DNA from: a virus
IMG/VR virus record: IMGVR_UViG_3300015360_000224
Location: 1-21,385 of that record
DNA length: 21,385 nucleotides
Direction: 5' to 3' (one strand)
How positions within the stretch are numbered: position 1 is the stretch's first letter; every line of letters starts with the position of its first letter. This document shows, in pieces, positions 1,043 to 16,431 of this stretch. The notes under the pieces are model-generated. The model worked only from the letters and a program-made list of their open reading frames with translations, did no database searches and was not told the DNA's origin. The position numbers and the translations under genes are program-made.

Positions 1043-2305
1043 CTAAAATGTACCACCATCGAGATCGGCAAATACGGGAGCACCCGAAACGTTACCCTGT
1101 AATACTTTTCCTTCGGTTGGTGCAGTCGTAATCAGCAATGCTCCGTTTGCTCCTGCGCCGTATATAACACCGTTTAGTGCAAAGGATGATTGGCCTGTGC
1201 CACCAAATTGAACGTTAATCGTTGAGGCTTGCCATGTGCCGATGGTAAGTGTTCCTAGTCCTGTGATGCCGGTATAAGAACCTGACACGCGGGCGGAAGG
1301 AATAGTACCAACAGAAAGAGCCGTTGCGTTGGCATAACCATCTGTGTGGAGGCGACCAAGAGCGGATGCGCCCGATAGAATGTTGTTTGACTGTGCTGTC
1401 CACCAATCATTGGTTTCATCCCAGTAGATTGCAGCGTTTGAGTTTGTGTTGCCGCGGTTAACAACAAGTCCCGAATCTTCGGATGGAGCAATACCAATAG
1501 GAATATCGGCATTCAATACCAACATATTGTCGCCAATATTCAACTGGTTTGTATTGGCAAAAAATGTTGTGCCGGACATAACAATATCTCCGGTGAATGT
1601 TTTATTACCTCCAATTGTTTGGGTACCGGTTGTTCTAACTACGGTTGAGTCAACAGATGTTTGAACGATTGTATTGCCGGTGTTTGCGATAACAGCGGTT
1701 GTAATACCATCGCCACCAAGTATGTTTAAATTATCACCGGCAGCAATAACGTCTGAGCCAGTATTGCCTTTAACGGTAAATGTAGAACCTGCCGCGATTG
1801 CAACGTTGGATGCACTAGTGATGCGGCCTTCGATATCAACCAGGAATGAAGAATATGCAGAACCATCGGTTGCGCCATATAGACCTGGCGTAACGCCGGT
1901 ATCAGTAAGATCAACAGTTAGTGTAATATTTGTTGAACCATCAAATATGACGTTAGCGGTTGCGTCACCGGCCAGAGCGATATAACGACCGGTTGTTAAC
2001 GTGTTGGCTGTATTTGCTGGGCCATGCAAAGCACCAACATGTTGGGTCCCTGTAATAATTCGGCCCGAAAAATCACCGTCGTTGGTGCGCTTTACGAGAT
2101 TATTTGCGTTATTTGCTGAGGTTGCACCGTCAACGATATCAACATAATACTTACCGCCGATGGTTAAAACGCCGGTACCAGCAGCATTACCCATATATAA
2201 TTTATCAGAAGCAAACGAATATGCAGGTTCAGCTATATTAAGACTGCCTGCTGTTGGTGCCGCTGTAACTGCGCTCCGGCGGAATTTAATTACGGTATTG
2301 GCCAT
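1043..2305 (-). CDS. Tail fibre protein (420 aa)
   Basis: This 420-aa protein has the patchwork make-up of T4-like marine phage tail fibres. Residues 1-50 form an opening module (MANTVIKFRRSA ... LNIAEPAYSF...KLYMGN). At about 110-135 is ALAGDATANVIFDGSTNITLT, a recurrent fibre motif. At 226-240 GTQTIGGNKTFTGD is the widespread fibre repeat. At 253-304 NIGDNMLVLNADI and AAIYWDETNDWW follow, and from 335 to 420 come IPSARVSGSYTGITGLGT, FGGTGQSSF, TEGKVLQ and a terminal LDGGTF. These motifs are characteristic of adhesive, trimeric beta-structured fibres. The ATG has AAGGAC upstream and the stop is TAG. The C-terminal DGGTF recurs in the adjacent 72-aa protein. The role is probably a distal fibre or receptor-binding component; which surface molecule it binds cannot be told. 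Confidence 0.85.
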   Translation of the reverse strand: MANTVIKFRRSAVTAAPTAGSLNIAEPAYSFASDKLYMGNAAGTGVLTIGGKYYVDIVDGATSANNANNLVKRTNDGDFSGRIITGTQHVGALHGPANTANTLTTGRYIALAGDATANVIFDGSTNITLTVDLTDTGVTPGLYGATDGSAYSSFLVDIEGRITSASNVAIAAGSTFTVKGNTGSDVIAAGDNLNILGGDGITTAVIANTGNTIVQTSVDSTVVRTTGTQTIGGNKTFTGDIVMSGTTFFANTNQLNIGDNMLVLNADIPIGIAPSEDSGLVVNRGNTNSNAAIYWDETNDWWTAQSNNILSGASALGRLHTDGYANATALSVGTIPSARVSGSYTGITGLGTLTIGTWQASTINVQFGGTGQSSFALNGVIYGAGANGALLITTAPTEGKVLQGNVSGAPVFADLDGGTF

Positions 2306-2366
2306 TTTTGGTCCTTACTATTATTTTTGCCTAATCTAGGACAATTTTTTCTTTTGTTTTACTTTA

Positions 2367-2585
2367 TTAAAATGTTCCGCCATCAATAACCGGAATGACT
2401 TTTATTTCGTATTTGCCTGTAACATCATTCCACACCAATACTTCGCCGTTATCCGAATCCGATGCGTCCACATCCGTTAATCCGGCAAGAGTACTCGAGC
2501 CTGATCCTGATCCTGTTGCATTGATCGCCAAGGACCTAACTGTCTTGGTTCCACCTGTTCTATTTATAGAAATGCGATTTGTCAT
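2367..2585 (-). CDS. Small fibre-associated protein with a GLTDVD motif (72 aa)
   Basis: The 72-aa product holds a single recognisable block at residues 33-62, LAGLTDVDASDSDNGEVLVW followed by NDVTGKYEIK. The pattern LxDLTDVDxS...GQVLVYNxxTGKYE recurs, often in tandem, in tail fibres of cyanophages and relatives. The protein ends IDGGTF, nearly the same as the last residues of the 420-aa fibre. It looks like a one-repeat fibre made as a separate polypeptide, or the detached N-terminal piece of a once longer fibre. Its ATG overlaps the upstream stop (TAATG). A perfect late promoter box lies within its first codons. Function beyond fibre association is unknown. Confidence 0.75.
   Translation of the reverse strand: MTNRISINRTGGTKTVRSLAINATGSGSGSSTLAGLTDVDASDSDNGEVLVWNDVTGKYEIKVIPVIDGGTF
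2561..2568 (-). promoter_or_regulatory. Candidate T4-type late promoter box TATAAATA inside the 72-aa gene
   Basis: The minus strand reads TATAAATA, an exact match to the T4 late promoter box recognised by the phage gp55-type sigma factor. It lies within codons 6-9 of the 72-aa gene, about 255 bases upstream of the 420-aa fibre start. It could give extra transcription of the fibre genes. It could also be chance, because the sequence is simply read as Ser-Ile-Asn codons. Confidence 0.35.
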
Positions 2586-2920
2586 TAATTCACCTTAGGA
2601 CTTACAAAGACCGTGCCTTCCATAACTTTTGACACCGTGGCTCCATTATTAATGAATACACTGTAAATATATCGGCCGGCTTTCAATAAAGAGGTATTAG
2701 CCGCGGTCATTGTCATTTGAATTGCACCATTTGGGCCATCACTAATTGACGTTATAATATTGCCCGATGCGTTGGCACTGGTTGCGGCCCGCTTGAGTTT
2801 AATTGTATCTATTGTATAGCTGGATAGATTTAGGTTTGCGGACGTTACATCATCTGCAATAGTGATTGTATCGTTGAAAGTCGCTCCGGCATCTATGTAT
2901 AATTCTGCATATGCTGACAT
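2585..2920 (-). CDS. Conserved small virion-type beta protein (111 aa)
   Basis: The 111-aa product begins MSAYAELYIDAGATFNDTIT and continues with a strand-rich pattern (LNLSSYTIDTIKLKR, GAIQMTMTAANTSLLKAGRY, VFINNGATVSKVMEGTVFV). The order 'AELxIDxGxxFxxxITLxDD ... LxxYTxxxxhRK ... ISDxxNGxhxhxhTxANTSxhKxGRYxYxhxxxxxxxVxRVhEGxhxVxPxV' is one I associate with small structural proteins of cyanophages and other marine phages. It resembles in outline the Ig-like N-terminal domain of baseplate upper proteins. It sits between fibre genes, 22 bases downstream of the 224-aa gene, and its stop overlaps the 72-aa start. A bridging role between baseplate and fibre is inference. Confidence 0.78.
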   Translation of the reverse strand: MSAYAELYIDAGATFNDTITIADDVTSANLNLSSYTIDTIKLKRAATSANASGNIITSISDGPNGAIQMTMTAANTSLLKAGRYIYSVFINNGATVSKVMEGTVFVSPKVN

Positions 2921-2942
2921 TTAATTATCTTTCTTATACAAA

Positions 2943-3617
2943 TTATAGATCACTGTCAGTATTTGCAGTGTAAAATAGATTTATTCCATGTAGGCGGCCG
3001 TCAATAGCAAGAGTGTCTGCGGCAAGGGTCGCGCCTCGGCTTATAGCCAAAATCAACAAATCACCATCCACAGGAGAACCGGACGGAGTTATAGCTGCAC
3101 TCTCGGCGCCAATATAAAGAATATTTGCAGTACCGCCAGAAATCGTAACGGTAATTGGGGTTGAATACGCAACGTCTATGCTATCACTGGTGCTGGCTAC
3201 GCAAGCCGCCAAGTTCCATGATGCTGAACCGGCCGAGGTTGTTAGCTGAGAATATACTGGGGTAAAAGTAATAGTTCCTTTATCCCATGATTTTGGCATT
3301 CTAATTTGAAGTTCGGCCGTTTCGACGGTTGCAGGATCAAAATCATATGTTTTATAATTTATGGAATTCGTGGTTGAAACAACTTGATTCAGTGCAGGAC
3401 CATTGGTCAAACGCGCCTGGAAGGCCGCGGCCGGAAGCCACATTGTTTGCTTGCCGGCGCCAAGCACCTGACCATTTTTTAACAGATTTGTGGCCGAAAA
3501 TCTAACCGTGCTGTTGGCTGGCATAAGATCAATACTTATGGTATTGTTTCCTGTTGTCATAGTCAACGGAGTGGTGTTGCTACTTGTATTGATTGTGGTG
3601 ACTGTTAATGTTGACAT
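2943..3617 (-). CDS. Conserved phage protein with GKQTMWLPA and RLHGINLFY motifs (224 aa)
   Basis: Residues 1-50 are low-complexity T/N/S sequence of fibre type (TVTTINTSSNTTPLTMTTGN). From residue 53 the protein follows a pattern I recognise from many phages of marine and alphaproteobacterial hosts: GKQTMWLPA, TTNSINYKTYDFDP, ELQIRMPKSWDKGTITFTP, a W-containing strand, LYIGAESAAITPSGSPVDGD and the ending DTLAIDGRLHGINLFY. That family is widespread and has no assigned function as far as I know. It often sits by tail-fibre or head-decoration genes. The start has AAGGGAA upstream of ATAATG. Here it is embedded in the fibre cluster, so a fibre or surface-decoration role is the most economical reading. 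No catalytic motif is visible. Confidence 0.78.
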   Translation of the reverse strand: MSTLTVTTINTSSNTTPLTMTTGNNTISIDLMPANSTVRFSATNLLKNGQVLGAGKQTMWLPAAAFQARLTNGPALNQVVSTTNSINYKTYDFDPATVETAELQIRMPKSWDKGTITFTPVYSQLTTSAGSASWNLAACVASTSDSIDVAYSTPITVTISGGTANILYIGAESAAITPSGSPVDGDLLILAISRGATLAADTLAIDGRLHGINLFYTANTDSDL

Positions 3618-3626
3618 TATTTTCCC

Positions 3627-4502
3627 TTAAGCGATAACGGCTCGACCACCAGTAGTGATCGTCAAAACAATTCCTGTATTGACTACCAGTGGTCCTACAG
3701 CAATTGCTCTTTCTGTTGCATCTATTGTAACGTTTGCATTCATATATGCATGATTGACTCTAAAGATATCGCCAATGTTATTTGCGTTACCAATTGTTCC
3801 TCGATTACCTTTGAAATAACCTCCGCCGGTTGCATTGTTGGCGGTGTCAAAGGCGGCCGATGCAATAACATTTGCTGCGTTAGCCTTATTGAACGCACCC
3901 GAGGCTATAACTAATGTTGCATTTGTATTTGCATTGACAGTAAAGGCGAATAAATTGGCTGCGTTGGCCTTATCATATGCACCGGACGCAATAACATTTG
4001 CTGCGTTAGCCTTATCAAATGCAGGACCGGCAACGGCGCCGCTGTTGGCTTGTGCATATGCTCCAACTGCAATCATATGAACCGCATTAACGGCGTTAGC
4101 TGATGCTATATTTGCAGTGCTTTGATCATTTGTTCTGGAACTTAGAGTGCCAACATCAAAATAAACCGTGGCGCCGAGATTGGCGTTGTTGCCGCCTGAT
4201 ACAACCAGCGTTGCTGAATTTGAAATAAATTTAATATATGAATTAGCAAGTTTAGCATTTGTGACTGTTGCATCTGCAATAACAGTGGCCACGTTGGTTA
4301 GAAGTCCGCCGTCACCTTTAATCAATCCCGAAGATACATTAAGGGTAACGCCGGAGCCAACCCCGCCTGCATTTGTTAGTTTCAAAGTACCGGTGGAATT
4401 TGCTTGGCCTTCTGTTGATAAATTGGCAACAGTGATCAATTCATTTGTTTTGTTCATCCATGATAGGAATGTATCTACTAGGGTTACAAGTGATATAGCC
4501 AT
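3627..4502 (-). CDS. Repeat-containing tail fibre protein (291 aa)
   Basis: Residues 1-27 (MAISLVTLVDTFLSWMNKTN ELITVAN) form a short helix-like opening of the type LxDTFxxWxxxTNxII seen at the base of marine phage fibres. Residues 70-140 carry ATVTNAKLANSYIKF, a common fibre motif. Residues 147-222 hold imperfect alanine/asparagine repeats of the form AFDKANAANVIASG. Residues 243-291 end with VNTGIVLTITTGGRAVI, matching the frequent C-terminal cap LAVGPLTIxxGVTVTIxSGAxWVI. It is therefore a compact, complete fibre with base, repeat shaft and tip. It overlaps the 66-aa coiled-coil gene by a TAATG junction, suggesting paired synthesis. Receptor and exact location are unknown. Confidence 0.85.
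   Translation of the reverse strand: MAISLVTLVDTFLSWMNKTNELITVANLSTEGQANSTGTLKLTNAGGVGSGVTLNVSSGLIKGDGGLLTNVATVIADATVTNAKLANSYIKFISNSATLVVSGGNNANLGATVYFDVGTLSSRTNDQSTANIASANAVNAVHMIAVGAYAQANSGAVAGPAFDKANAANVIASGAYDKANAANLFAFTVNANTNATLVIASGAFNKANAANVIASAAFDTANNATGGGYFKGNRGTIGNANNIGDIFRVNHAYMNANVTIDATERAIAVGPLVVNTGIVLTITTGGRAVIA
3862..4015 (-). repeat. Direct DNA repeat within the fibre gene (28-base copies at 3862-3889 and 3988-4015)
   Basis: Two 28-base segments beginning gcaataacatttgctgcg are identical and 126 bases apart, in frame (42 codons). A third, shorter and slightly diverged copy of the centre (ctgcgttggccttat) lies near 3958-3972. They encode the KANAANVIAS repeat. Near-identical nucleotides, rather than only similar residues, point to recent duplication or homogenisation and allow shaft length to change by recombination. 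Confidence 0.8.
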
Positions 4503-4702
4503 TAGTTACGCCCCATCATTAGGTTCTTTAGAATTTCGATATCGTTTTCCATTTTTTCCAATTTATCCCGCAACTTGCGGTTTTCGATCAATAAACGCTT
4601 CTTTGCGATATAGTCATTTTTGACCTTTAAATCTGTTTCCAAAAGGGCCATGTTTACTGTATCACGCACCAGTGTTTTTTCGTCGGTTTTTATCAGAGAC
4701 AT
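4502..4702 (-). CDS. Small coiled-coil protein between baseplate and fibre genes (66 aa)
   Basis: The 66-aa product is almost wholly helical and charged: residues 8-61 include NMALLETDLKVKNDYIAKKR, LLIENRKLRDKLEKMENDIE and ILKNLMM, with hydrophobic residues at heptad spacing. It joins both neighbours by TAATG overlaps, so its output is probably tied to the 883-aa protein and to the 291-aa fibre. It may be a coiled-coil adaptor between baseplate and fibre or a small assembly helper. I do not recognise a named family. Confidence 0.78.
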   Translation of the reverse strand: MSLIKTDEKTLVRDTVNMALLETDLKVKNDYIAKKRLLIENRKLRDKLEKMENDIEILKNLMMGRN

Positions 4703-7353
4703 TATAGGTTCTCCGCTGGTAGTGCAATGGCGCGCACATCAAAGACTACAGGGTATTTAACTGTATTTTCTGACAGCATGACAATTTTCACCGCATATTG
4801 ATTGAATGAGCGGTATGTGTTTGTGCCCGAAGTGTAGGTAATTGAGTTGGCCGAAGCATATGGACGATATTCATATTCCTTATTGTCATATTCGTTTAGC
4901 GATTTGATAGTTGAAGGAGTTTTCTGTTCCATAAGAACATAGGGCTGCTTCTCAAATGCCACTGGGTCAAGAGAATTGCGAATCTTGTAATACACCTTAA
5001 GGTTTGTGCCGATTGGCTTATATGCAGTTAGCCACACACGTAAATCTCCGGAGTCGAAGCCTTCCGCTAAAGTTACTTTTTTAGAAATATACTTTGAAAC
5101 GGCCGGACCACCCGAAGGATTGATTTCGCTGGTTACGGAAAATGTTTGCGTATTTGAGCCCGATAGTACCACGATATTTGCGGTATTGATATAATTTTTA
5201 CCGCCATCTGTGATGACAAGGTAAGAAATACCGTTAGAGGCAGTGCCTGAACCTGCGGTGTTACCAATGGCATAACCAATTGCTGTTGTGGTTGCATCGC
5301 CTCCTGTGATCACAAGGGCCACATTAGAGTTTTGTGCCCAACCAGAACCTTCATTTGTGATTGTAATATCAGCATTTCCGATGTTTGCATTGTTGATGAT
5401 ATTTTCGATGGCCAGAACATTATAGTTTTTTGAGAAGATGATTGGAGATACATCTGGATCGGATGAAGTCAGAGTAGCACGTAGTTTGTACTTGCCTTCA
5501 TTATCCAATATCAAACGCGCACTTGGAACAAAGTTTGTATCCGGTACAAAATTAGCAAATGATACACCCGCATCAAACGATTGCGCATATGATACAGCGG
5601 TATTGCGTACAAACAAATCGTCGGCGTGTGTATATACCATGTCCATAGGAACATTGGCTGTTGGGGACACGTTATCAAATACAACAGAACCAGAAGTGGT
5701 GAATTGGCACTGATACAATTTGAACATCAAATCTTCTAACTGAATTGCATCCCAGGTCGAAGCATTTTGTGATTTGAAGAATGAACCAACATATGGTTGT
5801 TCGGAAACTTTGCGGGTTGAACCAATAATAGTGCCGCCCAATTCAGAAATCCAAACTTCATATTCGGTACTTGGTGAAACAACAACCATTGAATATTCGC
5901 CGGGTGGCAAATATAGGGGTGATGCGAATTTGAAATACGTGCCCACTTCTGGAATGATGGAACCGGTTACATATGGTGAAGATTCATACGTGCGTATATC
6001 TTCGGCCTTGACGGTAGAAATACCGCCATCCATAATTTCATATGAAGATGGATAGCCGTTTACAACAGGACGTATCTGTAGGGTAATTGGCATAATTTCA
6101 TCTTTGCTGCGAAACCAAATTTCAACCTTTGAGAGGAAGATACCATTGGTATGTTCATCATCATTTACAAAAAATGTTTGTGCAATAGGATCAGTGCGCC
6201 CGCCGTTGCCCTGCGAAGGAGTCCTGGGCCGAGGAGGTGTTACTGGCGGGGTTACAACAGTTGAAACTGTTGTTTGGGTATCTCGCAAAATAATACTATT
6301 GCGTACTTCCTGCAAACCAGATGCCGAGAATTTATATTCGGCCCGTGTGGTGCAATCATTAGGATCACCAGATGGATCGTCGATTATTTTGAATATACGT
6401 TCGCCGGTACGGAACATTCCCGGCGGAACCACAAATGTGCCAGCAATTGTTCCTTCACGCGAAATGCGGAAGTCTGAACCATCATTTGTTGCTTGTGACC
6501 AATTTATACCAAAATCGGCTGCTGGACGAATACTTGGCTCATCGGGAAATAGCTGCGCAAACGTTTGCGATAGCATAAGTGTTTGTGTAACGTTATTGAA
6601 ACCAACAACATTTGCTCGCGCAGCGCGAATTCTGTTTTTGCCAGCACCTTGGCCGCCGTGTGGAATAATAGTGATGTTATTTGAGCCGCTGGTTCCCCAG
6701 AAGTTATTTGCGGTGAATTTGGTTGCGGAATGTAGATTTAGCGTGTTGCTTGATACGCCTGAGAATCCTCCACCGCCCTTTTTACCCAGACGTTCAACAC
6801 CACGCACAACATGGCTTTTGATAGTTGAAGTGTTTCCGGTTACGGAACCGGTGATACCTGCGGTGTTTGCCCAGATACCAAACGCATTTGATATTTCTAG
6901 AATGCGGCGGCGGCCGCGATCATTGCCAGCATCATCATTATCAATGTCTCGGCGGCTTAGTCGGATAACAGCGTTGTTAGCCGAGGTACCTGAGATTAGC
7001 GAATCGTTGTTTGAAACGCCTTGGTTGAAAACAGCAATATCGGCGTTCGCGCTCAATTCCAATATATCGGTCGAAATTATGTAATCTGTAACATTTACAT
7101 CATCAAAGAAGAACCATACTTTGCGTTGGGGCTTCATGCCTTGCGCGACGAAATTGATTGACTGAGGACGCATAAACGGAATAATAGAAATGTCTATAAC
7201 ACCGTTATCAAAAGTGGATTGCTTAGTTGTAGTTTGTGTAGTCGTGGCAACTACAGCAGTTCGGCCGCCGCCAGTCGTGGGCGTGCCGCCCGTAGTTACG
7301 GTTGCACTAGAAACAACTGTTCCGTCTTGCAATATTCTTGGTGCTGTTGCCAT
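4702..7353 (-). CDS. Large virion structural protein, outer baseplate or fibre-base type (883 aa)
   Basis: This 883-aa protein matches large structural proteins of cyanophage-like T4 relatives. Residues 1-50 are T/G-rich linker. At 59-92 FMRPQSINFVAQGMKPQRKV...FFFDDVNVTDY is a conserved opening. Residues 150-260 include a GKKGGGGFSG loop. A proline-rich hinge lies at 368-380. Residues 387-545 form a domain with DPIAQTFFVND...GIFLSKVEIWFRSKD, IQIRPVVNGYPSS-type segments and GEYSMVVVSPSTEYEVWI. Residues 662-735 hold two glycine-rich beta modules (TNEGSGW..., TDGGKNYIN...). Residues 755-810 contain KKVTLAEGFDSGDLRVWLTA and YKIRN, also conserved. The gene follows a candidate late promoter at 7379-7386. 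It stands where T4 has gp9-gp11 but I cannot equate it with any of these. A role as peripheral baseplate or fibre-attachment protein is inference from context. Confidence 0.85.
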   Translation of the reverse strand: MATAPRILQDGTVVSSATVTTGGTPTTGGGRTAVVATTTQTTTKQSTFDNGVIDISIIPFMRPQSINFVAQGMKPQRKVWFFFDDVNVTDYIISTDILELSANADIAVFNQGVSNNDSLISGTSANNAVIRLSRRDIDNDDAGNDRGRRRILEISNAFGIWANTAGITGSVTGNTSTIKSHVVRGVERLGKKGGGGFSGVSSNTLNLHSATKFTANNFWGTSGSNNITIIPHGGQGAGKNRIRAARANVVGFNNVTQTLMLSQTFAQLFPDEPSIRPAADFGINWSQATNDGSDFRISREGTIAGTFVVPPGMFRTGERIFKIIDDPSGDPNDCTTRAEYKFSASGLQEVRNSIILRDTQTTVSTVVTPPVTPPRPRTPSQGNGGRTDPIAQTFFVNDDEHTNGIFLSKVEIWFRSKDEIMPITLQIRPVVNGYPSSYEIMDGGISTVKAEDIRTYESSPYVTGSIIPEVGTYFKFASPLYLPPGEYSMVVVSPSTEYEVWISELGGTIIGSTRKVSEQPYVGSFFKSQNASTWDAIQLEDLMFKLYQCQFTTSGSVVFDNVSPTANVPMDMVYTHADDLFVRNTAVSYAQSFDAGVSFANFVPDTNFVPSARLILDNEGKYKLRATLTSSDPDVSPIIFSKNYNVLAIENIINNANIGNADITITNEGSGWAQNSNVALVITGGDATTTAIGYAIGNTAGSGTASNGISYLVITDGGKNYINTANIVVLSGSNTQTFSVTSEINPSGGPAVSKYISKKVTLAEGFDSGDLRVWLTAYKPIGTNLKVYYKIRNSLDPVAFEKQPYVLMEQKTPSTIKSLNEYDNKEYEYRPYASANSITYTSGTNTYRSFNQYAVKIVMLSENTVKYPVVFDVRAIALPAENL

Positions 7354-7378
7354 GTCGTAAATTTAATCCTTTGTGGTC

Positions 7379-7386
7379 TATTTATC
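7379..7386 (-). promoter_or_regulatory. T4-type late promoter box GATAAATA before the 883-aa gene
   Basis: The minus strand reads GATAAATA, one mismatch at the first base from TATAAATA and matching the nATAAATA form described for cyanophage late promoters. The ATG at 7353 is 25 bases past the box, a normal late leader, with AAAGGAT between. The TAA inside the box is the stop codon of the 1161-aa gene. Confidence 0.65.
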
Positions 7387-10300
7387 GGCTTCTGCGGGTG
7401 CCAAAATGAGTCAATTGCATGTTATTTGTCGTGGTAAATGCATTGTTTCTAACGTTTGCGCGGGCCTGGTTCGTAACATTGTTGGCCACAAGGTCGGAGT
7501 TTACTTCGCCCAAGTTGACAATAACATCTGGTGCTTGAACCGTATCAATCCAGTTATCTGCTGGTGGGTCCATAACAATAGAACCAATGAAATCAGCAAA
7601 TAGATAAGGCTGCACGTTAACAAACTTGGTGGCCGTTAATTGACTGGCCAATTCAGTTTCCGTGTAAGATAGTAATGTTTTCTCACCAAGAGTTTTGATT
7701 GATGAGCCACTTGTTACATATAGTTTACGTTCAACAATGTTCTGGCGAGGCAGGGCCGCGCCGAAAACCTTATCGATAGAAATACTGAAATCTGGATTGT
7801 CAATGTCTCCTGAACCGAAGGTTGAAAAATTATCTACCAGAATGCCATATTTGGTGCGTTCCAATCCATCGGAATCGGTAATTGACAAATCAGAAACCGT
7901 TTGCTCCAATAGGCTTAGGGTCTGGTAATATTCCAGGTTTTCTATACGGTGTTCCAATACACCAATATCACGCATTGTATAACGCTTGTTTTCAACAAAT
8001 GTGACGATTGCATTTGCTGTACCTAGAGTGTATGGCTCAAGATATAGTTTGTATAGTATCATGGAATCGTCCATGACCCGAGGTTCCTGAGGGAACAAAC
8101 TTGATTCACCTTGAACTAGAGTGAATGGCGAATCCTGATTTGTTGTCATTACAATATAATCACGGCGACCTAGATAATACTGGTAATCCGCTTGGAAGTT
8201 TTCGTTAGGATAAGGAACGCGTAAACCTTGAATCGTGTAATTCGGCGCGGCATTTGATGCATTAATGCGCTTTGGTCTAAAATCGATGCAATCGCGCAAT
8301 GAATATGTTATGCCATCCTGTTTGGTGAATGATGGAACGGCAGCATATCCAGCGGTGTTGGCTGTATTTGGGTAAGAATCAACAGAGAAATAACCAAGAG
8401 TATCGCTTGTACCACCCGCAACATGCTCATACCAATCAAAACAAACAATCAATGGACCCGATGGCGCAGGAACACGCGGCTTTAAACGCAACGAAGCGTG
8501 ATCATAATGACTGTCGCGTTGGCCTGTATCAAAAGTGTATTTGGTTGTAACATCGGTATAACCGGCGATTGAAGCACCGGCCGATGGCAATGCGGCGCCC
8601 GCCAGATCGTAAATCTTAACAACACGTGTAACGTCCGAAACAAATAGATTTATATCAACATCAGGAATACGTGATGGTGTTTGTATTGTTACCTGTCCAG
8701 CAGTTAAGTAAACGGTGGTGTTTGAAGTACCGAATACAAAGCTTCCGTTTGATGTTGGTTGCACAAAATGACTTGTGTTCGCGGAGAATAGACTCTTGCT
8801 CTTAGGAAGAATGTTTTGGCCCGAATTTAAATTAATTGCTGCATATACCGTTGCTGCGCCGGCCTGGCCAGAATCTTTTGCGGTAAGTGTCGCAACACCC
8901 AGCGCAATGGTAAGTGTCGATAGTTCAATCACACGGCCTGTTGTATCATCTATAACAATGAAGTTACTCAGAACGGCACTTGAAGTTCCTAGACCGCCGG
9001 CACCATTGAAAGTTTCGGCGGGATAAGTGCCCAGAGTTGCGGTTGTTGAACCAGCAGTGAAAGTAACAGCAATCTTTTTAATATATCGGAAACCTTGATC
9101 GGAAATACTACCCGCCTTAATAAATTTCTGCGGGAATGGAAATAGAAGGCTGTTTAGGGTTGTTTCGGACAAATATGCGGAACCGTTAGCAATGTTATCT
9201 TGTTTGCTTGCAATTGTAATATTGCCGTTTGCGCGGTTAGAAGGTGCGCCATTGGTATAAGCAGAAATCATTAGAGATTCGGCCATCTTGAAATCAAAGT
9301 CAATTGAGAATTGTGTTGCGGCGTTTAGAGTTTGTGTAAAGTTTACCGCGGTGTTAATTGTCTTTTCGGTCGCGTTTGCGGTGTAGCGCGAAATAACATG
9401 TGTTTCGGCAAGTAGCGCGCCGCCTGTTGAAGGAATGATACGTAATGTAGCGCCTGCATATGCTGCGGAGTTTGCTGAGAATTTGTTTACGCCGGTATCG
9501 TAAATCAAAATACCATTGGCCGTGGTTGCCAGAACATTTGAGGTGATATTTGCAAAATTGGTATCGAAAACCGACATGCGATATGTGCGCGTATTTGCGT
9601 TAGCGGTATTTGATCCGCCCTCATATGTAACGGCGCGGACATGGCCCGTGCCGATTTTGGTTGAAGTGTAGCCTGTGTTCGAAAAAAGATTGGCAAACTG
9701 ATATGGCACAGAATGGAAATCAACCAACTGCCCAACAGTTGCATCCATTGAACCGCGCATATCGCCAACGATGATATAGTTACCGTAATTCATTGGAATA
9801 TCATAATTATTTACGGCTGAGTTGGCCCGCGCCCGAGGAATAGTTATCGCTTTCTGTGAAATACTTTCATATTCGTAGCCCTTTACATATGCTTTACCTG
9901 GATCAAGACGAACGTCAATAGAAGTATCATCGGTTGGATGATCAAAAACGTTGATTAAAAAAGGTCGTACGGTATACGAACCAGATTCGTCATATGTGCG
10001 CCGCGCCAGAGTATCACCTAGGGCCGAATATTGGGTATAAACAACTTCTGATTTGATTGAGCCCTCAACAATTTTCATAATTTCAATAAATGTATCATCA
10101 TCTGACGAATCTATGGAACGGATAGCAAGATCAAAATTAATTTGCAGGCGATTAGCACCAGGCGCCTGATAGTTTGAGGCTTCTTGTGCAGGATCAAGTA
10201 ATGTGGTATCCGCAGATGAATTGATAATATCGTTGGTGTATTCTAGTCCGATACGCGCATTGGCCCGCGCCGAGAATTTATCAACCACAATTGTTTGCTC

Positions 10301-10867
10301 AGGAACTTTAACGAAATATCCATTAATATAATAAATGCCTTCCGAAATAGAAACCATGGTTGCAGAACCATTTGAATTGGTGGTAGCAACATTCGCATAT
10401 ACATTTGCGAATGATTTTATTGTTGTGGCTCCGGAGAATTCCTGCCCAGTTAGATATTTGATAATCAAAACTGGACCATCATTGGCGGTAGGCTCTTTTG
10501 TACCAACCACAACGGCCTGCACATATGAGTTGCCGGTTGAATGTGTGATTGTGTTGCCAAGGAAAGAACCAACAGTAATATCGGTATTAGCATATTGCGC
10601 CGCAAGATTAAGGTGAGTTGCGCGATCATCTAATGAGATGCTACCGCCCAATACCTTTGAACCGTTCTTAAATACGTGATTACCAAAACGTTCAATTTGG
10701 TTTTGCAAGATAGTACCAATTTGGGTAAGTTCTGTTGCCTGTACGGCGTAACCAGGACGGAACAACAAGGACATGTAGTTCTTTTCTTCATCCCAATTGT
10801 TATAATAAGGAGTGATACGAACTTCCGCTGGAACGATCTTTGATGTTGCAATATTGGCAGTTGACAT
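7382..10867 (-). CDS. Large DUF4815-type virion structural protein (1161 aa)
   Basis: This is the longest gene in the window. Residues 20-75 (YYNNWDEEKNYMSLLFRPGY, AVQATELTQIGTILQNQIER, FGNHVFKNGS) match the hallmark opening of DUF4815-type phage structural proteins, which are known from T4-like and other myophages. Later blocks fit the same family: LDPGKAYVKGYEYE, RDCIDFRPKR, a likely helical segment MRDIGVLEHRIENLEYYQTL at 965-984, and VNVQPYLFADFIGSI...PPADNWIDT near 1083-1108. The central part is T/S/N-rich beta sequence. The start follows TAAGGAATAATAATG, where the ribosome site overlaps the gp8-like stop. T4 itself has no clear equivalent. Position between gp8 and the fibre genes suggests an outer baseplate or fibre-collar component; this is inference. 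Confidence 0.85.
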   Translation of the reverse strand: MSTANIATSKIVPAEVRITPYYNNWDEEKNYMSLLFRPGYAVQATELTQIGTILQNQIERFGNHVFKNGSKVLGGSISLDDRATHLNLAAQYANTDITVGSFLGNTITHSTGNSYVQAVVVGTKEPTANDGPVLIIKYLTGQEFSGATTIKSFANVYANVATTNSNGSATMVSISEGIYYINGYFVKVPEQTIVVDKFSARANARIGLEYTNDIINSSADTTLLDPAQEASNYQAPGANRLQINFDLAIRSIDSSDDDTFIEIMKIVEGSIKSEVVYTQYSALGDTLARRTYDESGSYTVRPFLINVFDHPTDDTSIDVRLDPGKAYVKGYEYESISQKAITIPRARANSAVNNYDIPMNYGNYIIVGDMRGSMDATVGQLVDFHSVPYQFANLFSNTGYTSTKIGTGHVRAVTYEGGSNTANANTRTYRMSVFDTNFANITSNVLATTANGILIYDTGVNKFSANSAAYAGATLRIIPSTGGALLAETHVISRYTANATEKTINTAVNFTQTLNAATQFSIDFDFKMAESLMISAYTNGAPSNRANGNITIASKQDNIANGSAYLSETTLNSLLFPFPQKFIKAGSISDQGFRYIKKIAVTFTAGSTTATLGTYPAETFNGAGGLGTSSAVLSNFIVIDDTTGRVIELSTLTIALGVATLTAKDSGQAGAATVYAAINLNSGQNILPKSKSLFSANTSHFVQPTSNGSFVFGTSNTTVYLTAGQVTIQTPSRIPDVDINLFVSDVTRVVKIYDLAGAALPSAGASIAGYTDVTTKYTFDTGQRDSHYDHASLRLKPRVPAPSGPLIVCFDWYEHVAGGTSDTLGYFSVDSYPNTANTAGYAAVPSFTKQDGITYSLRDCIDFRPKRINASNAAPNYTIQGLRVPYPNENFQADYQYYLGRRDYIVMTTNQDSPFTLVQGESSLFPQEPRVMDDSMILYKLYLEPYTLGTANAIVTFVENKRYTMRDIGVLEHRIENLEYYQTLSLLEQTVSDLSITDSDGLERTKYGILVDNFSTFGSGDIDNPDFSISIDKVFGAALPRQNIVERKLYVTSGSSIKTLGEKTLLSYTETELASQLTATKFVNVQPYLFADFIGSIVMDPPADNWIDTVQAPDVIVNLGEVNSDLVANNVTNQARANVRNNAFTTTNNMQLTHFGTRRSR

Positions 10868-10876
10868 TATTATTCC

Positions 10877-12196
10877 TTAAAACTTAATTGTAATCTTAAA
10901 ATCTTCTGATTGGTTGACATTTCGTGAAATTGCCACGATATTGTCAACATATAAGAATTCACCGGTGTTGATTTTCAAATCCGGAAGACCAATTGATGTT
11001 ACATACTTAGAAGCCGCCGAGGTAACTCCGACTAGAGGGTCAGAGATAGGAGTTCCTGCGGTATTCGTAACTAATACAACGGTATTGGCAGAATCATATT
11101 CCACAACAGTTCCGTAGAATGTAGCCGTTGCCAGAGATGCACCTTGGTAAACATATTCATCTTGAACATAATCTGCACCTACTCCGGAAACCGTTAGGTC
11201 AAAGGTTTGGGAATAAGCACTATTTCCGGCTGGTGCCAAATTGCCGTAAGTAAGCGGATTAAGCAATATAGCAACTTGTCTAAAGTCATTGGATACGCTC
11301 AATACGCCACCTTCACTATTTATAAGCCTTGGGTTGAGGATTAAGTTCTTTCCAACGAGTTCATATAACGGATCAGCACCATGGCCGCCCGGCGGTCCAA
11401 TCAAAGCTTTTGCGGTAGCGCCCGAACCAGCGCCGCCCGAAATAGTAACCGATGCATTTGTATATCCTGTACCGTAATCTGTTAGCGTGATGGTATGTAC
11501 TAATCCAGAGGTTAAGTTGATATTTGCCGTGGCCGTGGCTCCGGTGCCGTCACCGCCGATTGCGATGGTAATATTTGAGTTATTTGAATACGCGGTACCG
11601 CCTGAGGTTAATGAAATACCATAGATAGCGCCATCCGTGGCGCCTTCCTGTACGTCCCATTGCAACGAACCATCATCGGCCGATAAAGATTTAATAGGAA
11701 TATAAGAACCTGTCGTGAAACGAATCTGCTCCGAACCCGAGACAGAATACATGAATTTCCATGTGTATCCGTCCGCCGTTTGTGTGATGTTTGTTGGATT
11801 GATTGCCGTTGGCTTAACTGTTGAGTTGGCCCCGCCGTTATTGTATAGACACTTATAAACGTTGAAATCTGAATTAACCACATAGAATTTGACGTTATCT
11901 TGCCCTAACGTTAGACTGTTCTGGTCATATTGGGTATAAACGGTGTTCGCAGTCCAGTCATATCGCGGAATGCAATGCTGTACGTCATTGCCTGTAATGC
12001 GTTTGACTCCAATAATTGATTGCCATATTTCCGCGCTGTGTGCTGGTGAAGTATTGGCCGTGGCTGGTACGGCTTCATTGCTCCATGGCAATTTTTTACC
12101 AAACGTGAAAAACACATTAGCAGATGCCTGGTTGGAAATAGTATCTTTAAAGATAGAGGCTGTAAAAACTCTATGATTGTCAAGTAATGTTGGCAC
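10877..12196 (-). CDS. 8: Baseplate wedge protein, gp8-like (439 aa)
   Basis: Similarity to T4 gp8, a dimeric wedge protein, is recognised in the N-terminal half: residues 1-50 (NHRVFTASIFKDTI), FYVVNSDFNVYKCLYNNGG at 104-122 and GYTWKFMYSVSGSEQIRF at 143-160, followed by GPPGGHGADPLYELVGKNLI at 267-286, a conserved block in cyanophage-type gp8. At 439 aa it is about 100 residues longer than T4 gp8 (334 aa). Two tandem glycine-rich beta modules at about 191-266 account for much of the difference. The start is GTG at 12196 with AAGGAAC upstream; no better ATG exists nearby. A perfect late promoter box lies 18 bases upstream. A second TATAAATA is found inside the gene at 11317. Confidence 0.88.
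   Translation of the reverse strand: MPTLLDNHRVFTASIFKDTISNQASANVFFTFGKKLPWSNEAVPATANTSPAHSAEIWQSIIGVKRITGNDVQHCIPRYDWTANTVYTQYDQNSLTLGQDNVKFYVVNSDFNVYKCLYNNGGANSTVKPTAINPTNITQTADGYTWKFMYSVSGSEQIRFTTGSYIPIKSLSADDGSLQWDVQEGATDGAIYGISLTSGGTAYSNNSNITIAIGGDGTGATATANINLTSGLVHTITLTDYGTGYTNASVTISGGAGSGATAKALIGPPGGHGADPLYELVGKNLILNPRLINSEGGVLSVSNDFRQVAILLNPLTYGNLAPAGNSAYSQTFDLTVSGVGADYVQDEYVYQGASLATATFYGTVVEYDSANTVVLVTNTAGTPISDPLVGVTSAASKYVTSIGLPDLKINTGEFLYVDNIVAISRNVNQSEDFKITIKF
11317..11324 (-). promoter_or_regulatory. Internal TATAAATA box in the gp8-like gene (possible late promoter)
   Basis: An exact TATAAATA on the minus strand lies about 450 bases upstream of the 1161-aa gene start and is read as Leu-Ile-Asn codons. 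The 1161-aa gene has no closer box, so this could supply it. It may equally be a chance match. Confidence 0.3.
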
Positions 12197-12207
12197 GGTT
12201 TGTTCCT
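12194..12207 (-). promoter_or_regulatory. Ribosome site that supports the GTG start of the gp8-like gene
   Basis: The minus strand reads AAGGAACAAACCGTG. AAGGA is at normal distance from GTG at 12196. The frame gives PTLLDNHRVF, consistent with the gp8 family N-terminus, so GTG is preferred to a later start. Confidence 0.6.
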
Positions 12208-12214
12208 TTTTCTA

Positions 12215-12222
12215 TATTTATA
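12215..12222 (-). promoter_or_regulatory. T4-type late promoter box TATAAATA before the gp8-like gene
   Basis: An exact match to the T4 late consensus on the minus strand, followed by a short A-rich leader to the GTG at 12196. The TAA stop of the 708-aa gene (12218-12220) is contained in the box. This is the best-supported promoter in the window. Confidence 0.75.
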
Positions 12223-14344
12223 CGGTGCGGCCGAACGAAACGGTGCCCGTATTAGCTGCTCCTGCATATGGATGAATAACATAAAATACGTTTGTATTGG
12301 CCACCTGTCCAACGGTAAAGATACCATTGGCTATATTTGCCGTGTCGCCGGTCAAGATATCCAAATACACAGTGGCGTTTGCTGTCATTCCGTGGCTTGT
12401 ATAGGTTACGCGCAAGTTTTGTCCATTTGCTACGCCTGCGGTTAAGAAAGTACCAGTTAAGAAAATCATCTGTTGGTTTGTGTTGTAGTCTGCGGTGCGA
12501 TCTTGTTCCTCACCATTATCTTCAACCAAATATTCACCAAATAGTTTCATGCCGCCGGGATGCACGATACTTTCAACATATGATTTGTATTCTTTCAATG
12601 AGTTTTTGATCTTGGCAACATATGAGAAGTTCTGGTAGTAATCGCGGTCCTGTAGGAAGTTATATGAACTTATATGTCCATCGTCGTTTAGGTAACGGCC
12701 ATCATACGTATATACACCAGTAACGATTGTTGCTATGGCCTGTGCCGTACCGTCTCCGGATTGCGTTAGATTTAGGGTAGGCGCCGTTGTGTAATCTTGG
12801 CCGCGGTTTGTAATCGTAATACGTTCGATGGCTCCTAGTACCGAAGTAGTCATGCCGATTTCTTCACCGTCACCAAGAATAGCCTTTGCAACTACGTTTG
12901 CGCCAGATCCTGTAACTGTCGCCACATTTAAGGTAGGCAAGGCAGATTGTAGATAACCAAAACCACCAATAACCCAACCCGTATTGGCCGTAAATTGAAC
13001 AAGATTGATTGCGCCATTGCCATGAATTGACTTAACCTCGGCGTTAGCGCCGAATCCTTGTGCCGCCGTGAATTGGATTCGATCACCAACTGTATATGAT
13101 AGACCTCTGCTCACAACTTCCATACGTCCCAATATACCTAGAGACTTGACGGTTGTGTTTGCAATAACGTCCACGGTCGGTATCGAGGTATAATTGATGC
13201 CTCGATTACGCAATGATATGGAAGTAATGGGTCCAATTGGACCGTACACAAATGAACTTAAAGCATTAATGAGGGTGGTATTTGCATTCGGAGATGATAT
13301 CAAGATATTCAGGTTAGAATAAACGGCATTTGACAATAGAGTATTTGCTTCAACCTGAATTGTGCTTGAAAATATGTTGTATGTATTCGGGTGATATGTT
13401 CCTGAGGTGTCAACAGTTACAACATTAGCATTGGCCAATGAACCACCGCCGCCGCCGCTAAATAGCATGAATTCATTTCCGCGGAAACCGGCTCCAGGCG
13501 CGACAATTTGAATTGACGCTAGGTTACCTGAGGAAACCTGTGTAATAGAAGCCATGGCTCCTGTGCCGCTGCCAGACTCGATTATTACCGTATTTCCAAC
13601 GGAATAACCTTCACCTGGTTGAGTTATATTGATGGAATTTAAAATTCCACCAAAAACATTGGCGGAGAGTGACTTAGTAGCTCCGTTCTCAATAAACGTG
13701 GTAAAAACGGTTTCTCCGTTAAGGAATGTACCTTTATCGGAAGAAATGATTAATTCTGAGATGAGTGTTCCGTTTTCGTAGAACCGGTCGACTTTTTCGA
13801 TGATGGCCGATGCATTGGAGGTATTGCCAGTAACAACTTTGGAAACGAAGTTTTGTATGGCAGTTAGATTATTATTAGCGATACCAGCAATCTTTGTATC
13901 TTCCACACGAAGGGATTTCTGAATAAACCATTTACCGTCCGATGCTCGCAGAATATCAAGTTTCGGATAATAGATATCCGCTTCATTTCCGTCCGTCAAC
14001 AAACGCAATAGAAACTTAAGTGATTTCTCCGAACCTTTAGAGCGATAAAAATCCTTGACGTTTTTAAGGATTACTTCTTTATCGGTCAAAATATCTCCGG
14101 GCAGAAGCTTAAGGAAATTCGCATAAAACTTCTGAGAAAAATCGGTTAGAGTTGTGTCAACGTCAATGTAATTTAGAAGGTTCTCTGCGCGTTCAACAAC
14201 ACGACCCTGATTCAATACGGCCTTGTTTTCTTGTAGGTATTCATAATACGCTTCCATAAACGCAACAAAGGTCCTATGGTCATTACGGACATAAAAGGGG
14301 ACCTGCGAGTTAACCAGATTGCTGATGCGATTATTGCTTGACAT
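12218..14344 (-). CDS. Baseplate wedge-type structural protein in the gp7 position (708 aa)
   Basis: Residues 8-145 (ISNLVNSQVPFYVRNDHRTF, VAFMEAYYEYLQE, DVDTTLTDFSQKFYANFLKL, LKNVKDFYRSKGSEKSLKFL, IYYPKLDILRASDGKW) match a conserved N-terminal domain of T4-like cyanophage structural proteins that sits between gp6 and gp8. Residues 234-541 consist of several glycine-rich beta modules (for example QPGEGYSVG and TNRGQDYTTAPTLNL). Residues 571-608 (YQNFSYVAKIKNSLKEYKSY, HPGGMKLFGEYL) form a second conserved block. Residues 644-706 hold an extra small module, TSHGMTANATVYLDI...GIFTVGQVANTNVFYVI, known from other phage proteins. It overlaps gp6-like by TAATG. T4 gp7 is 1032 aa and I see no direct similarity, so equivalence rests on position only. 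Confidence 0.82.
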   Translation of the reverse strand: MSSNNRISNLVNSQVPFYVRNDHRTFVAFMEAYYEYLQENKAVLNQGRVVERAENLLNYIDVDTTLTDFSQKFYANFLKLLPGDILTDKEVILKNVKDFYRSKGSEKSLKFLLRLLTDGNEADIYYPKLDILRASDGKWFIQKSLRVEDTKIAGIANNNLTAIQNFVSKVVTGNTSNASAIIEKVDRFYENGTLISELIISSDKGTFLNGETVFTTFIENGATKSLSANVFGGILNSINITQPGEGYSVGNTVIIESGSGTGAMASITQVSSGNLASIQIVAPGAGFRGNEFMLFSGGGGGSLANANVVTVDTSGTYHPNTYNIFSSTIQVEANTLLSNAVYSNLNILISSPNANTTLINALSSFVYGPIGPITSISLRNRGINYTSIPTVDVIANTTVKSLGILGRMEVVSRGLSYTVGDRIQFTAAQGFGANAEVKSIHGNGAINLVQFTANTGWVIGGFGYLQSALPTLNVATVTGSGANVVAKAILGDGEEIGMTTSVLGAIERITITNRGQDYTTAPTLNLTQSGDGTAQAIATIVTGVYTYDGRYLNDDGHISSYNFLQDRDYYQNFSYVAKIKNSLKEYKSYVESIVHPGGMKLFGEYLVEDNGEEQDRTADYNTNQQMIFLTGTFLTAGVANGQNLRVTYTSHGMTANATVYLDILTGDTANIANGIFTVGQVANTNVFYVIHPYAGAANTGTVSFGRTV

Positions 14345-16431
14345 TATGTGTTTTCGTTTACCGCGGTTACTTGGATACTTGAACCATCGTTATCGTCGAT
14401 ATCCAAAATACGATTGCGCAATGGATAAATTGTTTCATCTAGAGGCTTAATGTTTATGGCCAGTATATCATTTGCATAGTAAGAATTTTCAACCAAAGCG
14501 GTTGGTAGAAAACTTAAAATACGAATTATGCCCTTATCATAATCAATCGTGCCGGCTGCCGCATTAACAATAACTTTTTCGCCGTTTGTTTTATAATAAA
14601 AGGTGCGTAGATCACCTGTTCTGTTTTGCAGAACGGCCGTTGCTGTTGCTCCTGCTCCTTCGCCGCCAGTTATGGCAATGATGGCGCGAGTATAATTTAT
14701 GCCGCGATTGGCAATTGTAATGGTCGTTACCCGGCCATTCACAATCTTTGCGGTTGCGGTTGCGCCGATGCCATCGCCCGTAATAGTAACGGTTGGTGCA
14801 ATTTCATAGTCTGTACCAGGATCAATAACATCAATGGAATCCAATCCAGTAAATGAATCCGGAATTTCTTCAAAATAAACGTTACGCGAAACGCCATTGA
14901 TATCAGTGACGGTTACCGCTGGGTAAGAATATAGTTTATCCTGTGAGGAACCTTTATACAGAGATGCATTGAAATTCAAGGTATAATTCTTTGTTTCATT
15001 CAATGTTGGTTCAAACCGCTTCTGTAGGTATACGTCCAATTCAGATGAAGTGATTGAATTATCAACGGCGTCAAATGACCGTTGCAACACAGAGTTACGG
15101 AATACCGACGTAAATGAACGCAGATTGCTATCACGATAGTCAATGACGGCCTCGCGGATCAATGCACCAATTTCATCCTCATCATATGAAGTTAGTCTGC
15201 TATCATAATAGACTTTGGCTACAATGATAAAGTAAACGTATTGCGGGTCCACGATTTCCGCGGTTACGGTTAGAACACTTCTATTTTCCAGAATATCAGT
15301 AACAATGCGGTTCTTTTCAACAATGGAAATAGCATACCCGTCAACAGGACTTAGTGAGATAAAAATCTTACCATAGATCGGCGGATCATTTGATTCTCCG
15401 CCCCAAACGGCCGCGGAATAAATGTTTGGATAATCCTTTAGAATAATGGCCTGATAATCGTCAATGGTAACCGCACGGTTCTGAACCGTGTAGTGTATAG
15501 GTGCCCGTGTACGGATTTGTTCAATTGTTTCTTTTGCTGAACCGCCGGCCGCTGCTGTTACCGAGGTAACAATAACGTTGGCGGTAAAACCATCAATGTC
15601 CTGCACCAAGGTGAATGTGTTGGCCTTGTTTGCTGCGATACCTTGGGTATCGATATAGCGAATGAATACAATGTTTCCGTTTGATAAATTTTGACCAAGA
15701 ATACCATCGCCAAATGTAATTGTATAAGAACCATTTGAATCTGGATTTTCTTCAACAAAATACACTGCTGAATTTGACTTCAACTCAGTTAGGTCTTCCG
15801 CTTCTGTGTAAGAATATGTTAGCGTGTTTGCAATAGATTCCTGCACTGTAACGATGATGGAATTCAAATCAACTGTGCCAGATGGGATTGTGTAGCGGCG
15901 TTTGGTATTGGAAGGCGATACCGTATAGGTCTGGGTGAGAAGTTCGCCCTGCTTTAGTTGAACGTTGGTGAACAGAAATGCGCCATTGGCGGTCTTGGTT
16001 GCGTTATTGGATGCAACCGTTAGGAAGTTATATGCAATTCCGTCAATTGGTTCCGATAGGAATTGAGTGTACCTATCCAGTGTTGCATTCTGCACAACTT
16101 GATCTTCCAATAAAGAAGGCGTGACGGTGATATTGACTACGGCAACTGGTGCATTTTCGCCAGCCGGCACATAGTTCATAAGCTTGGCGTGTGAAATGAT
16201 TGAATTTCGGAGCTGGGCAGTATCAATGAACATTTCATTGGCTGCCATATTCAAATAGTAACCCATGTAATGTGTGTTATATGCGAGAAGATCGATAAGG
16301 ACAGACATACCGGCGCCTTCAAAATCATAATCTGAAAATTCAGCTTGATTCCGTAAGAATTCTTTTAAGTTAGCTTTAATGCTATTAAAATCGAGTTCGG
16401 AAACTCGAAGGGCAGTATTTGCTTGTGCCAT
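14344..16431 (-). CDS. 6: Baseplate wedge protein, gp6-like (695 aa)
   Basis: The opening (SELDFNSIKANLKEFLRNQA, EFSDYDFEGAGMSVLIDLLA, YNTHYMGYYLNMAANEMF) is the classic start of gp6, the wedge protein that links baseplate wedges into a ring. Residues 215-260 with YTITFGDGILGQNLSNGNIV and 300-345 with APIHYTVQNRAVTIDDYQAI (a baseplate J-like pattern) strengthen this. At 695 aa it is slightly longer than T4 gp6 (660 aa). Residues 531-601 carry two tandem glycine-rich modules (DPGTDYEIAPTVTITGDG and NRGINYTRAIIAITGGEG). A ribosome site ATAAGGT precedes the ATG, overlapping the end of the gp25-like gene. The stop overlaps the next start. I am confident of the family. Confidence 0.93.
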   Translation of the reverse strand: MAQANTALRVSELDFNSIKANLKEFLRNQAEFSDYDFEGAGMSVLIDLLAYNTHYMGYYLNMAANEMFIDTAQLRNSIISHAKLMNYVPAGENAPVAVVNITVTPSLLEDQVVQNATLDRYTQFLSEPIDGIAYNFLTVASNNATKTANGAFLFTNVQLKQGELLTQTYTVSPSNTKRRYTIPSGTVDLNSIIVTVQESIANTLTYSYTEAEDLTELKSNSAVYFVEENPDSNGSYTITFGDGILGQNLSNGNIVFIRYIDTQGIAANKANTFTLVQDIDGFTANVIVTSVTAAAGGSAKETIEQIRTRAPIHYTVQNRAVTIDDYQAIILKDYPNIYSAAVWGGESNDPPIYGKIFISLSPVDGYAISIVEKNRIVTDILENRSVLTVTAEIVDPQYVYFIIVAKVYYDSRLTSYDEDEIGALIREAVIDYRDSNLRSFTSVFRNSVLQRSFDAVDNSITSSELDVYLQKRFEPTLNETKNYTLNFNASLYKGSSQDKLYSYPAVTVTDINGVSRNVYFEEIPDSFTGLDSIDVIDPGTDYEIAPTVTITGDGIGATATAKIVNGRVTTITIANRGINYTRAIIAITGGEGAGATATAVLQNRTGDLRTFYYKTNGEKVIVNAAAGTIDYDKGIIRILSFLPTALVENSYYANDILAINIKPLDETIYPLRNRILDIDDNDGSSIQVTAVNENT

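Follow-up and report, generated by a model that had tools for sequence, protein, structure and literature searches.

In the baseplate of phage T4 the C-terminal domains of the wedge protein gp6 make ring contacts, with gp8 serving as a gp6 chaperone, according to the portion of PMC3004832 available to us, and elsewhere in the virion the additional Ig-like domains of tail sheath proteins are proposed, in the accessible part of PMC9230969, to aid adhesion. The window analysed here, a 21.4 kb virus record (IMG/VR record IMGVR_UViG_3300015360_000224, taken at its full length), holds on its minus strand a T4-like baseplate cluster of gp53, gp25, gp6, a 708-aa protein, gp8 and a split VrlC-like protein, and its gp6 and gp8 share with those of T4 both the parent fold and the surrounding gene order. 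The gp6-like wedge protein (695 aa; 14344..16431, minus strand, as are all window features below) matches Pfam Gp6-like_1st at 8e-24 and phrog_219 (baseplate wedge), scores 83.6 bits against PF21379 (cut-off 27), and in a fold search its AF2 model aligns with T4 gp6 (3h2t) over 273 residues (Z 21.4, rmsd 3.5). The gp8-like wedge protein (439 aa; 10877..12196) matches Pfam Phage-Gp8 at 3e-11 and PF09215 with 43.5 bits (cut-off 25), its AF2 model aligning with T4 gp8 (1n7z) over 263 residues (Z 21.5, rmsd 2.8). Between them, in the gp7 position of a gp6-X-gp8 order, lies the 708-aa protein (12218..14344), which gave no sequence match in the PDB and is linked to gp7 by that position, which is that of the annotated gp7 in P-HM1, and by Pfam PF23786 (Baseplate_wedge, 7e-9). 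The 883-aa protein (4702..7353; phrog_358) is, by comparison with full-length ORFs, the C-terminal half of the split VrlC-like virion protein. This protein occupies 4702-10867 of the window as two adjoining genes (1161 and 883 aa), as it does in four collected loci (L002-L004 and L006), and is a single ORF of ~1640-2750 aa in P-HM1, S-PM2, HTVC008M and others.

What these four window proteins have in common is a repeat unit of ~35 residues with the consensus GSITSITITNGGSGYTSGPTVTISGGSGTGATATA. A whole-record profile search of the T4 genome returned zero matches to it, and each of the nine other T4-like records searched (HTVC008M, P-HM1, Melnitz-1, vB_OspM_OC, pf16, S-PM2, Mosig and two IMG/VR records) gave at least one. 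Recurrence in four adjoining virion proteins was the core of the original prediction, and a seed profile of six window units, taken from gp6, gp8 and the 708-aa protein and never from the 883-aa protein, locates the very stretches it named. The gp6-like protein has two units (residues 528-565, 14737..14850; residues 566-603, 14623..14736), both matched by the seed profile and by a later run. The gp8-like protein likewise has two profile-matched units, at residues 189-228 (11513..11632; predicted strands 191-201, 209-215 and 218-227) and 231-268 (11393..11506; predicted strands 232-243, 248-254 and 258-266). Four to six are found in the 708-aa protein: a profile-matched unit at residues 233-272 (13529..13648), a weak one at 273-310 (13415..13528; 8.5 bits with the seed profile, 5.8 in the later run), a partial one at 371-396 (13157..13234; 22.2 bits; 371-392 with the seed profile), two more at 403-437 (13034..13138; 16.8 bits) and 504-542 (12719..12835; 44.0 bits), and a partial and weak match at 460-486 that the iterated profile adds (12887..12967; 9.0 bits). 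The 883-aa protein has one clear unit at residues 662-691 (5281..5370; 663-691 with the seed profile) and a weak one at 710-733 (5155..5226; 714-733 with the seed profile). In five of six complete ORFs labelled as the VrlC half, some of them near-identical, two units score at least 6 bits.

Because three of the four genes (gp6, gp8 and that of the 708-aa protein) had contributed units to the seed, detection was rerun with one gene held out, the profile being built without the target gene and the threshold set by the best of 1000 shuffles of the target protein. Both gp6 units scored above the best gp6 shuffle (27.1 and 22.5 against 10.2 bits), as did both gp8 units above theirs (13.5 and 22.0 against 10.5). 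Of five stretches in the 708-aa protein a single one did so (17.7 against 13.9) and two more reached 12.7; the remaining copies depend on orthologs and on the wider profile. For the 883-aa protein the seed profile was already independent; here the first stretch passed (10.0 against 5.2 bits) whereas the second, at 4.6 bits and at 5.5 in a further run, lay within the shuffles and is not significant alone. On these held-out and shuffle tests one homologous ~35-aa unit is present in all four window proteins, the 883-aa case being the weakest. The predicted pairs in gp6 and gp8 and the two or more copies in the 708-aa protein are thus confirmed as one homologous module in differing core wedge proteins; of the two diverged units expected in the 883-aa protein only the first stands by its own score.

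The units are short and biased in composition, and a PDB match to BurrH repeats, considered as a possible relative, is plainly compositional; Gly/Ala/Thr-rich beta sequence might therefore look alike without common descent. We consider this very improbable: in the 1596 ORFs of the window and collected loci the iterated profile scored 362 units at or above 10 bits, against one in composition-preserving shuffled and none in reversed controls, gp6 and gp8 pass when held out, and the same strand pattern appears in two separate models. Within the window, BLASTP aligns gp6 with gp8 at 44% identity over 79 aa (E about 1e-11), and among its 18 proteins the best iterated-profile score outside the four unit-bearing ones is 7.7 bits (1161-aa protein, residues 588-611).

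In gp6 the pair is an insertion within the conserved C-terminal domain: both flanks are conserved in the ortholog alignment, and orthologs that have no units show a shorter loop at the same place. Profile alignment to T4 ends at window residue 496 in gp6 and 169 in gp8, in each case ahead of the units. The suggestion that the pair accounts for much of the length by which the window gp8 exceeds that of T4 is upheld, the excess being 439 - 334 = 105 aa and the pair spanning about 80; if a weak match between window residues 302-316 and T4 residues 266-280 is correct, the window gp8 spends 132 residues on an interval that takes 54 in T4, and the 78 extra match the pair in size. Whether related phages lack the units was one of the checks proposed, and for gp6 many do. 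A first set of complete gp6 orthologs has exactly two units in 15/83 and none in 68/83, and a second, retrieved with the 708-aa protein and having contigs in common with the first, has two units in 50 of 53 distinct complete proteins and none in the other three. The neighbouring gp25 has zero units in 87 proteins of the first set and 46 of the second.

Trees of the gp6 core, built with the insert removed, place this acquisition. Across 75 rows (14 with units), drawn from 94 gp6 ORFs after removal of poorly covered ORFs and duplicate cores, the unit trait changes once (SH-aLRT 85), and it again changes once among 31 selected rows (15 with units, and 16 of the 61 without), where support is 92/95; support for a single gp6 unit clade is fair but below the starred level. 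As far as the trees show, the pair was probably gained once, in the ancestor of the clade, and then kept at two by vertical descent. The gp6-core tree also groups within this clade the gp6 of a contig assigned to a Chitinophagaceae MAG (locus L102, 1138-3174), which has gp25, a two-unit gp6 and the start of gp7; it is a phage binned into the MAG, and perhaps a hint at the host.

The pair in gp8 has a different distribution. Of 43 distinct complete gp8 sequences in the clade set, 42 have two units, and 14 of 35 complete proteins in a wider set give no profile match; across 26 gp8 sequences that include distant, profile-negative ones, the G, Y and GDG positions are invariant or at least 90% conserved. 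From this pattern the gp8 pair looks older than that of gp6. The gp7-position protein carries a looser array than the gp6 and gp8 pairs: every one of the 49 distinct complete proteins in the clade set has four to eight units, 4/55 of a wider set have none, and the 4,446-aa protein of P-HM1 has 17. In seven clade records of 110-178 kb, 46 of 48 unit matches fall in the gp6-gp7-gp8-VrlC neighbourhood, as assigned by ORF length and order. The remaining two of the 48 lie in a single 196-aa ORF with no assigned function, far from the baseplate cluster (locus L211, 1414-2004).

Where the gp6 pair came from is a question on which scores and tree at first pointed to the gene next but one. The gp6 and gp8 units match in register (matched means of 62 and 59, mismatched 49 and 43), and gp6 unit 1 is closer to gp8 unit 1 (mean 62) than to gp6 unit 2 (53), a result that goes against the proposed intragenic duplication in gp6. 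As pairs, those of gp6 score on average ~112 against gp8 pairs, 64.5 against clade gp7 pairs and 35 against shuffles, and for 12 of 13 some gp8 pair scores above every gp7 pair. A tree of pairs, with few columns and rough support, groups 11/12 gp6 and 12/13 gp8 pairs at 91/91, the outliers being one gp6 pair (locus L025) and one gp8 pair, and the pair data are compatible with all gp6 and gp8 pairs forming one clade (p-AU 0.285). All of this would suit a direct copy of the gp8 pair into gp6, followed by independent descent. Yet when the pool was enlarged, the 12 gp6 pairs compared (that of locus L026 was dropped) had mean scores of 110 against bacterial, 125 against sheath, 114 against gp8 and 67 against gp7 pairs, and the best single match was bacterial in 11 of the 12 and a bacterial/gp8 tie in the other. 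The bacterial pool was retrieved by a pattern from gp6 and gp8 unit 1, a GDG-pattern bias, so these scores come from a pool enriched for look-alikes and biased towards gp6 and gp8. Since bacterial and sheath pairs match gp6 equally well, gp8 is removed as the exclusive source and no gp8 origin is claimed; we hold a direct copy to be a doubtful, if still serious, account. Nor do gp6 and gp8 of the same genome match more closely. In 35 non-redundant genomes out of 54 having both pairs, the mean rank of a gp6 pair's own gp8 pair was 17.3/35 (permutation p 0.22), which gives no support to gene conversion or ongoing exchange. The transfer hypothesis thus survives in part: the spread of the module and its single gain in gp6 agree with it, continuing transfer between neighbouring genes is not supported, and gp8 as donor, contacts between the modules and a decorative role stay conjectural.

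The unit occurs well beyond these four proteins. It is also present in the neck protein gp14 of P-HM1, the hub protein gp5 of S-PM2 and a gp15-like protein of Mosig whose annotation is proximal tail sheath stabilization. Matches to the gp6 pair were obtained in 13 PHROG families. Genome contigs, when scanned, yielded 25 loci, at least four of which (L101, L102, L106 and L113) have phage baseplate genes of the same type. Ten proteins from the loci were scanned with Pfam, and two of these ten, together with L104, were compared in whole or part with PHROGs; the remaining loci were scored for units only. In this way the unit was placed in tail sheath proteins (L104, L105 and L108), CrtC-like proteins (L110 and L112), a multicopper-oxidase-like protein (L122), a GDSL-lipase-like protein (L109), a beta-helix protein (L103), a gp8 (L113) and an eight-unit protein from Verrucomicrobiae that matched no family (L099). 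The sheath proteins hold two to four units each (L105, 2560-4023; L108, 2530-4041; L104, 2254-4053), in genomes of Aestuariivirga, Pseudochrobactrum and Methylobacterium, and the multicopper-oxidase-like protein, from an Anaerolineales assembly (1341-5489 of its locus), has ten unit matches near its start. Two phylum samples, their centres counted in, gave matches at 1e-5 in 3/200 and 15/145 genomes. A tblastn search with the gp6 pair alone returned nothing at 1e-3 in phages or plasmids, though the profile detects units in those same phages.

Family libraries returned little over the unit itself. Pfam and NCBIfam scans gave no model above cut-off; the nearest, Gp18_dom_I (PF22639), reached at best 21.2 bits (708-aa protein) against a cut-off of 27, with weak matches in 3/39 units (best E 0.039). 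Sequence and profile searches of the PDB with the unit gave no confident match. Candidates set aside were a tailspike (partial, E 0.095), which was gone in a repeat profile search, weak matches to an endoglucanase (E 0.54) and a levanase (E 0.35-0.43), and filamin, weak with a single sequence (E 0.069) and at E 0.33-0.71 with the gp6 query; another single-sequence search returned nothing. Compared as profiles, the complete gp8 and gp6 alignments matched weakly (probability 14%, 28 columns). An open-access literature search found no title or abstract start that describes the unit.

One published experiment touches unit-bearing genes. In the portion of PMC9910659 available, the S-PM2d chemostat experiment lists early-mutated ORFs S-PM2d081, 084 and 088, whose S-PM2 counterparts bear the unit; together they took 4/33 early non-synonymous mutations while supplying ~14% of the genome (9137 codons out of a maximum of 65,427, computed from AJ630128), which is no excess and gives no sign of selection on module-bearing proteins. 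The same portion names gp8 among the mutated genes, yet S-PM2 gp8 has no unit match, and does not name the unit-bearing gp5.

As to what the module does, the original prediction raised the possibility of surface-exposed decoration domains that touch each other. In gp6 the units have mean pairwise identities of 0.56 and 0.44, other segments ranging from 0.38 to 0.68; in gp8 they stand at 0.48 and 0.48, with other segments at 0.44-0.54; and the G, Y and GDG.GA residues are among the most constant unit positions. Judged from sequence comparison, conservation so like that of the core argues against a fast-changing decoration, and taken with the near-constant count of two it favours a structural part. 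AF2 models of gp6 and gp8 predict three strands in each unit, with a pLDDT of 83-93 over the unit block, though pTM for the whole gp6 model is only 0.53; fold searches with the whole models were taken up by the parent domains rather than the units. We infer a position in a surface loop and autonomous folding. Given the ring contacts of the T4 gp6 C-terminal domains and the chaperone role of gp8 (PMC3004832, in the part available), an insert in the gp6 C-terminal domain would most plausibly brace contacts within or between wedges.

Host-contact domains usually vary. The main rival to bracing is weak adhesion, with exposed beta surfaces that loosely bind host or environmental glycans in the manner of Ig-like virion domains, and the sheath and fibre settings among the unit's locations in sheath, fibre, baseplate, neck and bacterial proteins suit such a role equally well; help with adhesion has already been proposed for Ig-like sheath domains (PMC9230969). 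The core-like conservation of the gp6 and gp8 units and a count that is nearly always two nevertheless speak against it, as does the absence of any carbohydrate-binding family from Pfam scans of the units; we therefore favour bracing and judge adhesion unlikely. A bolder reading, in which an unrecognised and widely mobile domain of phages and bacteria moved between unrelated genes as a two-unit cassette and came to form an adhesive patch joining gp6, gp7, gp8 and VrlC in marine-type T4-like phages, strikes us as unlikely too.

The reading we lean towards, with modest confidence for the whole, is that of a plug-in. The module would be a compact beta element, frequently built as two ~35-residue units of three strands each, and would form a small self-contained domain able to go into a loop and so to insert into otherwise unrelated proteins. 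The gp8 pair would have come first; the clade ancestor's gp6 would then have acquired a pair in its C-terminal domain and passed it on vertically; and the beta surface added by the module would strengthen contacts inside a baseplate wedge or from wedge to wedge instead of serving as variable host-range decoration. Such a recurrent building block is not covered by the family libraries scanned, and in one core baseplate protein, gp6, its point of acquisition can be placed on a tree. A gp6 that has either no units or two makes a countable system in which to study how the proteins of a virion can take up new domains and leave the assembly machinery working, and a curated model of the unit would help to annotate large hypothetical virion proteins.

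Accessory mosaic beta domains of virion proteins are a known kind. Like the Ig-like and beta-sandwich additions of sheath proteins described in the accessible part of PMC9230969, the window insert is an accessory beta element in a conserved virion protein, set off from the functional core; unlike them, it consists of tandem ~35-aa units with a signature of their own, sits in baseplate wedge proteins and is known from sequence and predicted strands. The phage domain mosaicism surveyed in PMC10684548 likewise finds one domain across proteins of differing function, the baseplate included, but the available portion of that survey is framed in terms of functional classes and ECOD domains and does not name the unit, and 'gp6' is absent from its main text. 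The profiles of phrog_438 (gp8-like), phrog_701, phrog_460, phrog_1922 and other PHROGs do contain the unit and match the unit-bearing window stretches, yet these are whole-protein families, and none was found that defines the module itself. Across the libraries searched, then, this unit family and its spread over phages and bacteria appear to be an uncatalogued member of that known kind.
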